Shown here piece by piece: positions 4,649 through 64,000 of a stretch of DNA of 64,000 nt. Below the pieces are notes generated by a model. It saw only the letters and a program-made list of their open reading frames with translations, was not told the origin of the DNA and made no database searches. Positions within the stretch are counted from its first letter, which is position 1. Each line of letters starts with the position of its first letter. The stretch comes from Gemmatimonas phototrophica. Its GTDB lineage: Bacteria > Gemmatimonadota > Gemmatimonadetes > Gemmatimonadales > Gemmatimonadaceae. Location: positions 124,001 to 188,000 of the forward strand of contig CAMBNV010000002.1 of NCBI GenBank assembly GCA_945869195.1. The letters are read 5' to 3'. A program made the translations under genes and the position numbers.

Positions 4649-4659
4649 TTCCCAGGGGT

Positions 4660-4774
4660 GCCGGCGACGGCCTACTCTCCCGCGTCCTCGCGGACGGAGT
4701 ACCATCGGCGCTGTAGGGCTTAACGATCGTGTTCGGGATGGGAACGAGTGTGGCCCCTACGCTCTAGTCGCCAG
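4660..4774 (-). rRNA. rrf: 5S ribosomal RNA
   Basis: About 115 bases. The 5' end (CTGGCGAC) pairs with the 3' end (GTCGCCGG), and the conserved internal CCATCCCGAACACG of 5S rRNA is present. It lies downstream of the 23S gene in the same operon. Ends are estimated from pairing. Confidence 0.92.
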
Positions 4775-4922
4775 CGAAAAGCTGGTAAATCACCTACGAA
4801 TCACCTACAAAGAGGTGACAACGGAGTGATGGTAGTGTTCGTGTGTTTGCGAATCTATTGTATATAGATCGTGCGATTGCTCTGCGGTTGTTTTCCAACC
4901 CCTGACTGTGAAGAAAGGGGGA
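4775..4922 (-). other. 23S-5S spacer with 3' half of the 23S processing stem
   Basis: No gene is seen. Bases 4817-4843 are complementary to 8007-8032 on the other side of the 23S gene, so they form the base of the precursor stem cut by RNase III. Confidence 0.75.
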
Positions 4923-7880
<2,958 letters not shown>

Positions 7881-8195
7881 CAAAATCTAGTCCAGCAGAG
7901 CACGCGCGATCTACAACGAGTGATCTGATATCGGTGGACTCGCCTGGTTACCCAGTCGAGCCTTTGTAATTCGTCGAAATCGTGTCACTAGTGTGATTCG
8001 TTATCCCACGAACACTACCATCTTCCGTTGTCAATAAGCGGGTCGTGCGCCCCATCCCTAAAGGACGAGGCCAGACTGCTATAAAGTCGAGTATGAGAGA
8101 GAAATCGCGCAGTGTACGAAGCAAGCGACTATCCGGTAGCGCTTTCGTGCCGTCACCAGAGGGTTAACCCTGATGGGGCCTACTCGCTGCTCCGT
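7881..8195 (-). other. 16S-23S internal transcribed spacer, no tRNA
   Basis: About 315 bases. No tRNA-Ile or tRNA-Ala is recognisable. It holds the 5' half of the 23S processing stem (8007-8032, pairing with 4817-4843) and the 3' half of the 16S processing stem (8087-8114, pairing with 9856-9882). Confidence 0.75.
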
Positions 8196-9716
<1,521 letters not shown>

Positions 9717-9931
9717 TAGAGAATCCAATAGGCTCTCCCGAATCGCTGTCACGCTGTCACGCATGACAGCGTTATTCGGAATCACAAAATATAGTTCAGG
9801 TCTAAACTCTCCCCAGGCCCCCGAACGGGACCAGGATCAATGAGTTTGCCTCGCACACTTTGCGATATCTCTCTCAACTCGATTTTCAATCAGCATTTGT
9901 TTGCTCGGCATCATTTCCATGCCAGCCTTTA
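9717..9931 (-). other. rRNA operon leader with 5' half of the 16S processing stem
   Basis: A transcribed leader of roughly 210 bases without genes. Bases 9856-9882 are complementary to 8087-8114 beyond the 16S 3' end and form the 16S precursor stem. A small hairpin (CTGTCA-TGCG-TGACAG) is also present near 9752-9770. I cannot identify a convincing boxA. Confidence 0.65.
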
Positions 9932-15397: not shown

Positions 15398-15494
15398 TGG
15401 CGGGAGCGTGTGGGAATCGAACCCACCCAGCCCGACGTAGTCAGGCCGCTACGGTTTTGAAGACCGCGGGGACCACCAGACCCCATCCGTTCCC
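15398..15494 (-). tRNA. selC: tRNA-Sec (anticodon TCA)
   Basis: About 97 bases including encoded CCA. The anticodon stem GCGGT/ACCGT holds a CTTCAAA loop, so the anticodon TCA reads UGA. It has a long variable arm (about 20 bases), a T-arm GTGGG-TTCGATT-CCCAC and an extended 8-base acceptor, the features of bacterial selenocysteine tRNA; the acceptor shows a mismatch or two. It starts 42 bases downstream of the selD stop, so the two are probably co-transcribed. Confidence 0.92.
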
Positions 15495-15536: not shown

Positions 15537-16571
15537 TCAGGCGAGCGCGATCCGCACCCCACCATCGCTCCTCTGCACGGCGCCAACGACCACCGCCGAC
15601 GGCACGCGGGCACAGTAGGTCTCCACCTGATCGGCAGCGAGGGCAACCAAGAGACCGCCAGAGGTCTGCGGGTCTGTGAGCAGCGCCCGGAGCTCGTCCC
15701 CGACATCATTCCAGTCGACCTCGGCCGAGACCCAGTCCGCGTTGCGGCGTGCCCCTCCAGGAAGGTAACCGGCCACGAGCGCTTCGCGCGTTCCGGGCAG
15801 CCAGGGCACCGACGCGACATCGAAGACGAGCCGGACATCGCTCGCGCGCGCGATGTGGAGCGCGTGCCCGAGCAGTCCGAATCCGGTAACATCGGTCGCG
15901 CACCGTGCCCCAAGGTCGACGGCGGCACGCGACGCCGCCGCATTGAGCGTGCGCATCGAGTCGTAGAGGGCCTCGGCGTGCTCGGGAGCGAGCGCACCAC
16001 CCTTTTGTGCGGTCGCGAGGATGCCAGTGCCGATCCGCTTGGTGAGGAGCAAAACGTCGCCGGGGCGCGCGTTCGCGTTGGAGAGGATGCGGTCGGGATG
16101 CACGCGGCCGGTCACCGCGAGGCCGTACTTCAACTCGTCGTCGATGACCGTATGACCACCCACGATTCGCGCGCCGGCCTCGTGGACCGCGTCCTGCCCA
16201 CCACGCAGGATCTCCGTGAGGACGGAAAGCGGGAGCGTCTTGACGGGAAAACCGACGATGTTCATCGCGGTGAGCGGTTCCCCACCCATCGCATACACAT
16301 CCGAGAGCGCGTTCGCCGCGGCGACCCGCCCAAACCGATAGGGATCATCGACAATCGGCGCGAAGAAATCGAGGGTCTGGACCAGCGCGAGTTCGTCGGA
16401 CAGGCGAAAGACCCCCGCGTCGTCGAAGGTCTCTCGACCAACGAGCAGGCGGGGATCAGTTTCACGCGGCAGCGGCGCGAGCGCGGCGGATAGGTCACCC
16501 GGACCCATCTTTGACGCTCAGCCGGCGCCGCGAGCGTACTGCGTGAGACGGACGATATCGTCTTTAGTCAC
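15537..16571 (-). CDS. selD: Selenide, water dikinase (selenophosphate synthase), a predicted selenoprotein
   Basis: Makes selenophosphate from selenide and ATP for Sec-tRNA synthesis. Conventional reading begins at ATG 16508 (MGPGDL), which lacks the catalytic loop. Upstream the same frame reads through a single TGA (16520..16518) as RLTQYARGAG-U-ASK, matching the E. coli RLTQYSHGAGCGCK segment with Sec at position 18 in place of Cys17. The frame begins at GTG 16571, giving 344 residues. Later motifs are intact: LVGRETFDDAGVF, TDVTGFGLLGH and DPQTSGGLL. A hairpin follows the UGA at bacterial SECIS distance. tRNA-Sec is just downstream and selB is in the same window. Confidence 0.93.
16490..16508 (-). 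promoter_or_regulatory. Predicted bacterial SECIS hairpin in selD
   Basis: Starting ten bases after the UGA, ATGGGTC and GACCTAT form a seven-pair stem (one G-U) with loop CGGGT. The loop lies 17 bases after the UGA, within the range known for SelB-bound SECIS elements, and it contains the expected G and U. Confidence 0.65.
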
Positions 16572-16674: not shown

Positions 16675-17058
16675 TCAGGGAAGCTTCGCGATCAACTCGA
16701 CTTCGACGCTCACGCCGCGGGGGAGCCCGGCGACCTGCACGGTCGACCGTGCAGGGCGCGCCTCGCCTAGTGCGGCGGCGTAGACCTCGTTGAACCGAGG
16801 AAAATCCGCCATGTCATGCAGGAACACGGTCGTTTTCACCACGTCGCTCCAGGTGAGGCCGGCTTTCGCGAGGACCTCGGCGAGATTCGCCATGACCTGG
16901 CGACTCTGCGGCACGATGTCGCCGGAGACAATCTCCATTGTTGCCGGGTCGAGTGGGATCTGACCGGCAGTGAAGAGGAAGCCGCCGGCGATCGTCGCCT
17001 GGCTATACGGGCCGATCGCCACGGGGGCCTTGTCGGTGCTCACAATCTGAACGGTCAC
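16675..17058 (-). CDS. ridA: RidA/YER057c/UK114 family reactive-imine deaminase
   Basis: A 127-residue protein that hydrolyses enamine/imine intermediates from PLP enzymes. Typical motifs are present: APVAIGPYSQA at the start, FTAGQIPLDP, and the C-terminal RSTVQVAGLPRGVSVEVELIA with the substrate-binding Arg. It starts at GTG 17058, ten bases after fhs. Between this gene and selD lie about 100 bases with nothing recognisable. Confidence 0.95.
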   Translation of the reverse strand: MTVQIVSTDKAPVAIGPYSQATIAGGFLFTAGQIPLDPATMEIVSGDIVPQSRQVMANLAEVLAKAGLTWSDVVKTTVFLHDMADFPRFNEVYAAALGEARPARSTVQVAGLPRGVSVEVELIAKLP

Positions 17059-17067
17059 AGCGTACTC

Positions 17068-18741
17068 CTAGAAGAGGCCCGAAATAGAGCCATCGGGATG
17101 AATGGCCATTTTTTCTGCGGCCGGGGCCTTGGGCAGGCCCGGCATGGTCATGATCTCACCGCACTGCGCGACGAGGAAACCTGCACCGGCGAGGGGATAG
17201 ACGTCATTGACGGTCACGCGAAAGCCCGTCGGGCGTCCGAGCTTGGTCGCATCGTCGGAGAGCGAATACTGGGTCTTCGCCATGCAGATCGGCGTCTCGG
17301 CGAGACCGATGCTCTCGAGGTAGGCGATCGCGCGCTCTGCCTTCGCGCTGTAGTCGGCACCGTCGCCACCGTACACCTGCTTCACGATCGTGTCGATTTT
17401 CTCCTTGATCGGAAGCGCGGCGTCGTAGATCGGTTTGAAGTCGGACATGCCGCCCTTGAGGATGTCGAGCACCTCGCGCGCGAGCGCCTCCCCCCCGGCC
17501 CCGCCCTTGGCGAAGACCTCGCAGAGCGCAACGCGAGCACCCGCCTGGACTGCCGCCTCGCGGACGATCGCGATCTCGGCCTCGGTGTCGCTGCCGAACC
17601 GATTGATCGCCACAACGAGCTCCATGCCGAACTGCCGCACGTTCTTGATGTGGTGTTCGAGGTTCACGACCCCCTTCTTGAGGGCCGCGAGATCCTCGGT
17701 GGCGAGCTCGGTCTTCTTGGCACCGCCATTCATCTTGAGCGCGCGGATGGTGGCCACAAGCACCGCGGCCTCGGGCTTGATCCCCCCAAAGCGGCACTTG
17801 ATGTCGAAGAACTTCTCGGCGCCAAGATCGGAGCCGAACCCGGCCTCGGTAACGACGACATCGCCGACGGCGAGGGCCGCGCGGGTCGCAAGGATTGAGT
17901 TGCATCCATGCGCGATGTTGCCGAACGGACCGGCATGCACGAACGCCGGACCGCCCTCGAGGGTCTGTACGAGATTCGGGCGGATCGCATCCTTGAGCAG
18001 CATCGCCATCGCGCCGCTCGCCTTGAGATCGCGCGCCCGGACCGGCGTACGATCCGCGCCATAGGTGGACCCGACGATGATGTTGCCGAGTCGTTCCTCG
18101 AGATCGGCGGCGCTGGTGGCGAGGGCAACGATCGCCATGACCTCCGAGGCCGGAATGATCACGAATCGTTCTTCCCGCACGACGCCTTCGCCCGGGCCGC
18201 CGAGGCCGATGATCACCTTGCGGAGGGCCCGGTCGTTCATGTCGATGGTGCGCGGCCAGGTGATACGGCGCGGATCGATATTGAGTGGGTTGCCCTGCTG
18301 CAGGTGATTGTCGAGCAGTGCTGAGAGTAGTGCGTGGGCCGAGGAGATCGCGTGGAAGTCGCCGGTGAAGTGCAAGTTGATGTCGTCCATCGGCAGAACC
18401 TGCGCGTAGCCGCCGCCAGCGGCGCCACCCTTGACGCCGAACACGGGGCCGAGCGAGGGCTCACGAATGCAGAGCACCGCATTGGTCCCGATCTTCCGCA
18501 GCGCCTGCGCAAGGCCCACCGATGTCGTCGTCTTCCCTTCCCCGGCCGCGGTTGGATTGATCGCGGTGACGACGACGAGCCTGCCTTTCGCTGGGCGCGT
18601 CGTGAGCTCAAGGGAGACTTTCGCCTTGTACTTGCCGTAGAGGTCGATGTCGTCGGGCGTGAGGCCGATGTCGGCCGCCACGTCGGTGATGGGGCGCATG
18701 GTGGCCGCTTGCGCAATCGCGATGTCGGAGGGAACGCTCAT
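17068..18741 (-). CDS. fhs: Formate-tetrahydrofolate ligase
   Basis: ATP-dependent formation of 10-formyl-THF from formate, feeding purine and fMet-tRNA synthesis or C1 assimilation. The 557-residue length and motifs match the family: TAINPTAAGEGKTTTSVGL (ATP site, about 60-78), EPSLGPVFGVKGGAAGGGY, and the C-terminal GRPTGFRVTVNDVYPLAGAGF. TAGCAT ends six bases before the ATG with no Shine-Dalgarno sequence, so the message may be leaderless. ridA follows closely. Confidence 0.97.
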   Translation of the reverse strand: MSVPSDIAIAQAATMRPITDVAADIGLTPDDIDLYGKYKAKVSLELTTRPAKGRLVVVTAINPTAAGEGKTTTSVGLAQALRKIGTNAVLCIREPSLGPVFGVKGGAAGGGYAQVLPMDDINLHFTGDFHAISSAHALLSALLDNHLQQGNPLNIDPRRITWPRTIDMNDRALRKVIIGLGGPGEGVVREERFVIIPASEVMAIVALATSAADLEERLGNIIVGSTYGADRTPVRARDLKASGAMAMLLKDAIRPNLVQTLEGGPAFVHAGPFGNIAHGCNSILATRAALAVGDVVVTEAGFGSDLGAEKFFDIKCRFGGIKPEAAVLVATIRALKMNGGAKKTELATEDLAALKKGVVNLEHHIKNVRQFGMELVVAINRFGSDTEAEIAIVREAAVQAGARVALCEVFAKGGAGGEALAREVLDILKGGMSDFKPIYDAALPIKEKIDTIVKQVYGGDGADYSAKAERAIAYLESIGLAETPICMAKTQYSLSDDATKLGRPTGFRVTVNDVYPLAGAGFLVAQCGEIMTMPGLPKAPAAEKMAIHPDGSISGLF

Positions 18742-61946: not shown

Positions 61947-63803
61947 TCAGGGATTCTCCGGAATGGTACCAAAGGTGCGACCGGCGTCACGTCGAAGCGA
62001 GAGGCGTTGGCGGTCGCACCATTCCAAAAAAGGGATCAGCCACTTGCGCGTGATGCCCAAGGCATCGCGCAGTTCCGCGGGAGAATAGGTCGTTCCGGGC
62101 TTTACGTGGCGTCGCAGCCGAGCGAGCAACTCGGTGACGCCCTCGCGGGAAAATGGACGATCGAGCGCGACCATCACAATCCGCTTTTCCTTGTCGAGGA
62201 GCTTGAGGAGCGCGGGGACTTGGGCCCCGAACTCTACCGTGAGCTCTGCGAGGCTCGGCGGCTCAACGCCCGATGCACGGAGACGGTCGAGCAGTTGATC
62301 TCGCGCCGACGTCGCACCCGCGCTCGCGCCGGGCTGGAAGGCCACCGCGCGGAGCGTCGCGCCCTCCACCACAATGAGTCCTGCGCGCTGGGCGCGTCGA
62401 ATGACCTCGTCAGCGAGCGCGGCATTGGGAGAGAGGGCGGTGCGAGCGGCTTGTCGATCGACGCCCGGAGCAAGCGGCTGTGCCAGGTGCGTCTCCTCCA
62501 CGAGCGAGACGAGCGTGGTGCGCAGAGCGGCAAGCACCGAGAGGCGCACGAGACGCTCCTCGATGCGCACGACTTTCGTGAGCTCCTTGAGCAGTCGCTC
62601 GACCAGCACCGGACGCAACCCGAGCCGCAGGGGGAGCGACGCGACGGGTAGGCCGCTGGCGCCGCTCTCGAGGAGCATCCACTCGAGCCGCTCCGCGTCA
62701 CTCGCACCGGTGTGCGGCCATGGCTTGGCCCGCGGACTGGAGGGAAGTGGATCACTCACCACGCCACCGCCGATGGTGCCGGCGTCACCGCCGGCCCGGA
62801 GCACGAACCGGTCCCCTGCCCGCATCACGACCGGTGCATCGAGCCGCAATCGCACCGCACGCGTCTCTCCAGGCCCAAGGGGGCCGCCAGGCGCGATGAT
62901 GCGCGCGCCGACATCGGCGGTACCGAGGTGAAATCGCAACCATCGACGCGCGCCAATCACCGGTGCATGCGGCAACAGCGCGATGTCCGCACGCAGCACG
63001 CGACTTGGTTCCCACGGGTCGCCTTCCCGGACCAACACCGCATCGGGCGCAACCTCGTCGCGGTCGACACCGACGAGTGCAACCGCCACACGCGTCCCCG
63101 CCCCTACCTCCCCCGCCGGCACGCCGTGGGACTCGAGACTGCGCACACGCGCGGTGCGATCGATCGGGAGGATCCGCACGATTGCCTCTCGCGCGATCGT
63201 CCCCGTCCAGGCGGTGCCCGTGACGACCGTCCCCGCTCCGGCCACGGAAAAGACACGATCGACCGGCATACGCCACGGCTCGTCGCGCGCGCGCGCAGGC
63301 ACGAGCGCGACGGCCGTGCGAATCGCAGCGCGCAGATCGTCGAGACCGGCGCCCGTGGCCGACGAGACCGGCACGATCGGCGCCTCGGCGAGCGACGAAC
63401 CCGCGAGCGCCTCGCGCACCTCCTCGGCAGCCAGCTCACGCAAGTCATCGTCGACGAGATCCGACTTGGTCAGCGCGACGACGCCCGCCGTCACGCCAAG
63501 GAGTGTGAGAATCGCGAGGTGCTCCCGCGTCTGCGGCATGACCCCCTCGTCGGCGGCGATGACCAGGAGCGCGAGGTCGACTCCAGAGGCGCCAGCGAGC
63601 ATCGTCCGGACGAACGCCTCATGTCCGGGGACATCGACGACACCAATGGTGCCTACGCCATCGAGTTGGAGCGGTGCAAAGCCGAGTGCGATCGTGATTC
63701 CGCGCCGTTTCTCCTCGGGGAGTCGGTCGGTGTCCACGCCGGTCAGCGCGCGGACGAGCGAGGTCTTGCCGTGATCAATATGCCCCGCGGTGCCGAGAAT
63801 CAC
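61947..63803 (-). CDS. selB: Selenocysteine-specific elongation factor SelB
   Basis: Brings Sec-tRNA to UGA codons marked by a SECIS hairpin. 618 residues: EF-Tu-like G domain ([38 protein letters not shown]), domains II/III, then several winged helices at the C-terminus for SECIS binding ([20 protein letters not shown]). It starts at GTG 63803, overlapping the recO-like stop as GTGA; a GTG 18 bases upstream is an alternative. It completes the pathway with selD and tRNA-Sec at 15.4-16.6 kb. selA is not in the window. Confidence 0.94.
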
Positions 63804-64000
63804 CGGTGCGATGCCTCCCACGATGCCCAGGCGCGCAACGCGCGTCCGTCACCGAGATGCTCCTCCACAAACTCACGGAGGAGCCGCAGATGGGCGCGCA
63901 GCGTTGGCGGATCAAGTGCTGGCGCCTCCTCGTCGCGCGACCAGCTGAGGAGCGCGAGTCGCGCCTCGGCCGGCAGCGTGCGCGCACCCGGCACGAGCGC
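63800..64000 (-). CDS. 3' end of a recO-like gene (partial)
   Basis: 67 codons up to the window edge; the 5' part is outside. The residues HLRLLREFVEEHLGDGRALRAW resemble the C-terminus of RecO, which loads RecA on ssDNA with RecFR. Without the N-terminal OB fold or zinc motif the call is tentative. The stop overlaps the selB start (GTGA). Confidence 0.5.
   Translation of the reverse strand, partial: ALVPGARTLPAEARLALLSWSRDEEAPALDPPTLRAHLRLLREFVEEHLGDGRALRAWASWEASHR

Follow-up and report, generated by a model that had tools for sequence, protein, structure and literature searches.

The selD locus and its reading frame

The window (the whole stretch of 64,000 nucleotides that was analysed) was found to carry on its minus strand a selD gene interrupted by one in-frame TGA, together with a tRNA-Sec gene and selB (Table 1). 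The gap between selD and the tRNA-Sec gene was 42 bases, exactly as the initial annotation had claimed. Genes for a Rid-family protein and formate-tetrahydrofolate ligase preceded selD in the same orientation, at positions 16675-18741. The 16S, 23S and 5S rRNA genes occupied positions 4659-9719 of the minus strand.

Table 1. Features of the selD locus and other genes of the selenocysteine system discussed in the text (positions are those of the window unless another contig is given)
Feature	Position	Strand	Remarks
selD, selenophosphate synthetase	15537..16571	minus	GTG start 16571, stop TGA 15539-15537, 344 aa
In-frame TGA, putative Sec codon	16518..16520	minus	residue 18, motif GAG-U-ASK, catalytic position
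SECIS-like hairpin, 8 pairs, loop CGGGU	16489..16509	minus	apical loop 16 nt after UGA
Internal ATG (Met22)	16506..16508	minus	ORF 15537..16508; an ordinary gene caller could start there, losing the active site
tRNA-Sec gene (selC), anticodon TCA	15398..15494	minus	ARAGORN; Rfam RF01852, 75.2 bits (gathering 47)
selB, selenocysteine-specific elongation factor	61947..63821	minus	TIGR00475, 310 bits (cut-off 242.25); about 45 kb from selD
AhpC/TSA peroxiredoxin with TxxU	L091:1411-1971 = G000:C1:196954-197514		second UGA-bearing gene of the host genome

Translation of the minus strand from the GTG gave VTKDDIVRLTQYARGAG, the TGA and ASKMGPGDL, after which the frame was open to the stop codon. 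The proposed frame, with a single TGA leading into SelD, was thereby borne out, whereas the N-terminus given for it, TDDIV, had to be corrected to (V)TKDDIV. No Shine-Dalgarno-like stretch was seen by eye before the GTG. When the read-through product was compared with the SelD family model (NCBIfam TIGR00476, cut-off 125), as had been recommended in the initial annotation, it scored 393.1 bits, whereas the product of the internal ATG, whose ORF does exist as annotated, scored 369.3 bits. In the phmmer alignment, the UGA coincided with the Cys in the GAGCGCK motif of 3u0o, a SelD of solved structure, in agreement with the catalytic position that had been assigned to it.

The start and the TGA were compared in eight other members of the genus, namely those for which a selD position was printed, with one TGA each; G248, which has selD, was left out. 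All eight had a start codon at the position of the GTG (ATG in seven, GTG in one) and an identical TGA 17 codons after the start. No Cys alternative to the UGA codon was found in frame just upstream, and similarity upstream of the UGA continued in the relatives considered below. No selD match was obtained in three genus members (G073, G087 and G129), which gave no selA match either. Because the read-through product scored higher against the model, the UGA met the Cys of 3u0o, and the start and TGA were kept in eight relatives, it may be concluded that the frame through the UGA is not due to chance.

The window SelD retained U18, K21, D51, D68, N87, D91 and D227. Of these, D51, D68, N87, D91 and D227 were invariant among 12 aligned SelD proteins, and the Asp residues are presumably those that bind metal. 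The Sec/Cys-x-x-Lys motif, present in the window SelD as U18-A-S-K21, is described in part of PMC4210487 as important or essential for SelD, as are Asn87 and four Asp that bind metal.

The hairpin behind the UGA

The stretch behind the UGA was folded, a check for a SECIS that the initial annotation had called for. The stem of the resulting hairpin began after 8 unpaired bases and contained 8 pairs, including one G-U, in addition to a lower stem. The loop had been given correctly in that annotation, whereas the stem had been described as seven pairs starting ten bases behind the UGA. The 42 nt from the UGA folded with -19.4 kcal/mol (z -2.8), and only 1 of 200 dinucleotide shuffles was as good.

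According to a portion of PMC13188914, the bacterial SECIS model has an apical loop of 3-9 nt with G in the first two loop positions, an upper stem of 4-16 bp, 16-37 nt between the UGA and the apical loop and an MFE of at most -7.5 kcal/mol. The window hairpin agreed with this model in its loop (5 nt), stem (8 bp), G position (C-G-G-G-U) and energy, and its spacing of 16 nt was at the lower limit of the model. Since the stretches of all 26 Cys genes examined below also passed the energy limit, the energy criterion alone says little here. The hairpin fits the published model and is a putative SelB-binding element.

Because the hairpin lies within conserved codons, stricter tests were made. When synonymous codons were shuffled and the protein was kept, the p value was 0.075 for the window gene alone; p < 0.05 was obtained for 16 of 45 Sec genes and 1 of 26 Cys genes. 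As a hairpin test for individual genes, this shuffle was dropped since it was too weak for single genes.

Sec and Cys variants of SelD

A set of 71 SelD loci was picked from the list of a scan of genomes of the phylum; it comprised the window gene, the 30 best-scoring loci, 20 loci with TGA and 20 without, and was not random. The phylum was taken to be Gemmatimonadota from a comparison of this one gene: the SelD of L146, a Longimicrobiales locus of the wider contig scan described below (phylum Gemmatimonadota), was closest to loci assigned to the same order or class (62 to 68% for the top three) and more distant from the remaining named loci (54 to 56% for the top four). The catalytic position was occupied by UGA in 45 loci and by Cys in 26, the set having been partly chosen to contain both. 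Among the 37 host-type genes, the four-pair core of the hairpin was complete in 22 of 22 Sec genes versus 1 of 15 Cys genes (Fisher p 2.5e-9, relatedness ignored), and the Gly codon was GGU in all 22 Sec genes versus 2 of the Cys genes. Only this core was common to all the host-type Sec genes, several of which had another best fold of the stretch. At the corresponding position, most UACK-type genes of the sample formed another hairpin. When all 71 loci were counted, 38 of 45 Sec genes had a stem of at least 6, versus 5 of 26 with Cys (Fisher p 9e-8, again with relatedness ignored).

Relatedness was taken into account by means of independent contrasts. On the protein tree of the 37 host-type SelD, at least five Sec/Cys changes, counted irrespective of direction, were needed. 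Of the five independent Sec/Cys contrasts, an average of 4.9 had the hairpin on the Sec side and 0 had it on the Cys side; with five pairs, p < 0.0625 is unreachable. For all 71 loci and a stem of at least 6, 2.7 of 8 pairs agreed, 5.3 were ties and 0 opposed. The host's family can be regarded as a natural experiment, in which one enzyme underwent several Sec/Cys switches, the hairpin differed along with them in nearly every independent contrast and tRNA-Sec was kept. Four SelD-Cys loci (L014-L017) lay on a long branch and were of a markedly divergent type (GAGCGCK), and L016 and L017 come from genomes of the host's own family; these genes were perhaps acquired from elsewhere.

A wider contig scan yielded 574 loci, of which the best 80 were considered; 79 of these were usable (L129 was dropped because the motif had been picked at the wrong place) and included 53 Sec and 26 Cys genes. 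The core helix was complete in 22 of the 53 Sec genes versus 1 of the 26 Cys genes (p 4e-4, relatedness ignored). When the window sequence was aligned with the 53 Sec sequences, 61.3% of cells paired. Changes on both sides of a pair were found in 31 cells of these 54 sequences, a number reached in 0 of 500 shuffles, and the covariation score exceeded that of every shuffle and of every slid version. Such two-sided changes affected 6 pairs, a number that was not outstanding, being reached in 97 of 500 shuffles and equalled by two slid versions. As an example, columns 18-26 of the alignment contained U-A in 18 sequences, G-C in 8, A-U in 2, G-U in 2 and C-G in 1, and were unpaired in 23. The core helix and compensatory changes in these other genomes indicate that a considerable share of the SelD-Sec genes in other phyla have this type of hairpin.

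The loci also differed in the Cys residues next to the catalytic position. Among the 37 host-type SelD, 34 had a Cys three residues before the Sec or Cys (CAGU/CAGC), and only the window SelD (GAGU), L045 and L049 lacked it and had a lone Sec. The other 34 of the 71 SelD (xCK type) all had a Cys at +2, and none had one at -3. The idea that the lone Sec of the window SelD is unusual was rejected: among the 79 scanned SelD, 41 (33 Sec and 8 Cys) had neither partner Cys, 12 had one at -3, 26 had one at +2 and 0 had both. Since all of these states occur in other phyla and CxxU is already in print, the GAGU state of the window SelD was given no special weight.

Selenocysteine machinery and the pairing of selD with the tRNA-Sec gene

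The selB ORF carried the Pfam SelB winged-helix and beta-barrel domains, and selA was found on another contig of the host genome. This genome therefore contains selA, selB, selC and selD, that is, the bacterial Sec-decoding trait. No second selD above the family cut-off was found in it, the four weaker matches being below the cut-off, and the sole selD above the cut-off contained one TGA. No match to selU was found in the host genome (in the control, 1 of 14 genomes exceeded the cut-off), and selenouridine is therefore not an evident reason for keeping SelD.

In the phylum sample of 395 genomes, selD was found in 283 (E <= 1e-50) and selA in 282 (E <= 1e-60). A selA gene was listed for 17 of 20 UGA genomes and 19 of 20 Cys genomes. 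The exceptions were G147 among the Cys genomes and G183, G352 and G390 among the UGA genomes; the latter three are assemblies of 230 to 740 contigs.

The tRNA-Sec gene started at most 90 nt behind the selD stop or overlapped the selD end in 35 of the 37 host-type loci, Sec and Cys alike. The exceptions were L049, where the tRNA-Sec gene was 2 kb away, and L056, where only 58 nt of sequence were left. In the 34 xCK-type loci, the tRNA-Sec gene was upstream of selD in L016 and L017, and none was found within the examined stretch in the remaining 32. In L068, L069 and L075, the tRNA-Sec gene overlapped the last 44 bases of selD. An overlap of tRNA-Sec with selB is described in part of PMC13188914, and the proximity of selD to tRNA-Sec is already reported in a portion of PMC5330540. 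Given the closeness of the two genes, selD and the tRNA-Sec gene may be co-transcribed in the host's family.

Many selD genes of the host's family had the Sec codon near the 5' end. It is conceivable, if improbable, that the UGA acts as a selenium sensor for the selD/tRNA-Sec pair and thereby as a positive-feedback switch on Sec decoding. When Sec was available, ribosomes would pass the UGA and the transcript would be protected through to the tRNA; when it was not, translation would stop at codon 18, the message would be open to polarity, and tRNA-Sec would be lowered. However, the tRNA-Sec gene was kept beside selD in all 15 host-type Cys loci. The pairing thus persists without the UGA, which counts against the sensor.

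A second UGA-containing gene of the host genome

Searching the host genome for other genes with an internal TGA yielded one AhpC/TSA peroxiredoxin out of six AhpC/TSA matches. Its motif was RTAGUTAQM, its N-terminus looked like a signal peptide by eye, and a 7-pair hairpin started 14 nt behind its UGA. No TGA was found inside the molybdopterin oxidoreductase, AhpD-like or thioredoxin matches of this genome (5, 1 and 4 matched stretches, respectively).

The peroxiredoxin was searched for in 41 genomes, 37 of which gave a match; L197 was not matched by the site pattern. Among 17 genus members, the TGA was present in 12, and the stem GGCGUAC...GUACGCC was found behind it in all 12. The other five had Cys and no TGA; they were G073, G087 and G129, from which no selD or selA match had been obtained, as well as G395 and G398. 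In G024 and G015, which have a SelD with Cys (L072 and L082, respectively), one TGA was located somewhere within the peroxiredoxin match. Judging from the second UGA gene and from the TGA in the peroxiredoxin matches of genomes with SelD-Cys, Sec decoding in the host lineage seems to be kept not for SelD alone. In G183, a UGA copy and a Cys copy of the peroxiredoxin were close together (L187).

The window was also scanned by composition for read-through genes. The scan listed one place, TGA 35991 on the minus strand, which was rejected since it seems to end one gene directly ahead of the beginning of the next; the sequence that follows resembles seryl-tRNA synthetase. The scan did not list selD itself and is therefore not sensitive.

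Interpretation of the in-frame UGA

The selD of the window is very probably a selenoprotein gene, in which Sec is inserted at UGA 18 by hairpin- and SelB-dependent decoding. Ribosomes would start at the GTG and reach the UGA at codon 18, where SelB bound to the downstream hairpin would deliver Sec-tRNA-Sec, so that translation would continue in the SelD frame. The tRNA, encoded by the gene behind selD, would be charged with serine and converted by SelA. The Sec residue predicted at position 18 would lie in the N-terminal loop (U-x-x-K) and play the role of Cys17 in E. coli SelD, and the protein would synthesise selenophosphate. Selenophosphate would feed SelA and, through it, SelD itself as well as one or more clients, including the peroxiredoxin. 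A self-feeding loop from SelD through selenophosphate and Sec back to SelD can be inferred from this scheme, which is built on sequence comparison.

If the UGA were a real stop, SelD would have to be made from the internal ATG without the N-terminal loop. The ORF from this ATG is open, its product still matches the selD model at 369.3 bits, and Met is present at this position in all nine genus members examined, the window included; however, Leu replaces it in other relatives. Moreover, such a product would have neither the catalytic Sec/Cys nor the Lys of the Sec/Cys-x-x-Lys motif described in part of PMC4210487. In the eight other genus members, the 17 codons upstream of the UGA still resemble SelD and begin with a start codon, and both the GGU codon for Gly (22 of 22 Sec versus 2 of 15 Cys genes) and the core of the hairpin track the UGA. 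Initiation at the internal ATG in place of read-through is thus very unlikely. Even less probable is a sequencing error or the codon of a decaying pseudogene. Although TGA is one base from TGC or TGT, 44 SelD genes from the other genomes had the identical TGA, which thus recurs in independent assemblies, no further stop occurs in the selD frame, the catalytic residues are intact and the Sec machinery is present.

The UGA might also be read through by other means than Sec, for instance by a near-cognate tRNA or under a changed code, and read-through of UGA without Sec is proposed for insect SPS1 in a portion of PMC4561486. Against this, both selD and the neighbouring RidA gene use TGA as their stop codon. 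A tRNA-Sec gene and a hairpin of the SECIS model are present, and the position of the peroxiredoxin UGA is occupied by Cys in the three genus members that gave neither a selD nor a selA match (G073, G087 and G129). Decoding of this kind is hardly to be expected here, and insertion of Sec is the preferred reading.

Comparison with known SelD proteins

The solved SelD structures related to the window SelD were 3u0o (E 4e-76), 2yye/2zod (1.4e-58) and 2zau (8.9e-51), the first of which we take to be SelD of E. coli and the others SelD of Aquifex aeolicus. In 3u0o, the catalytic Cys is followed by a second Cys two residues on (GAGCGCK), whereas the window SelD has Sec and Ser at these positions. 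The 2yye protein shares C-A-x-K-x-GPGDL with the window SelD, with Cys in place of Sec, and has no second Cys.

The use of Sec by many SelD proteins, to which the initial annotation had referred, is in print: according to a portion of PMC4561486, Sec occurs in 19% of the SelD genes detected in reference prokaryotes, always at the same position. The Sec-containing bacterial SelD described in parts of PMC4561486, PMC1794560 and PMC13188914 resemble the window SelD in the position of Sec, the SECIS inside the coding sequence and the presence of SelA, SelB and tRNA-Sec, and no difference of kind from them was found. CxxU in SelD is already reported in part of PMC2398784, and the CxxU/CxxC proteins of that paper are like 34 of the 37 host-type SelD, whereas GAGU of the window SelD is without that Cys. 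Three Sec-to-Cys events are listed for SelD in a table of PMC1794560, parts of which describe such a conversion with a remnant SECIS; here, at least five changes between Sec and Cys, in either direction, were needed. The use of Sec by SelD, the SECIS that goes with it, CxxU variants and the change from Sec to Cys with a hairpin left behind are thus all known, and the window gene is a further example.

What is added here is the pairing of selD with the tRNA-Sec gene together with a minimum of five switches between Sec and Cys within a single family (phylum taken to be Gemmatimonadota), as well as a corrected reading of selD, which would otherwise lose its active site. The name Gemmatimonadota was absent from the main text of PMC4561486, PMC13188914, PMC5029168, PMC2398784 and PMC5330540, and none of the titles found for the phylum with selenoprotein or selenocysteine dealt with its SelD. 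About seven in ten of the genomes sampled from this phylum had selD and selA. One of the Cys genes of the sample (L079) kept a full 8-pair stem behind its Cys codon, and this stem may be a remnant SECIS.
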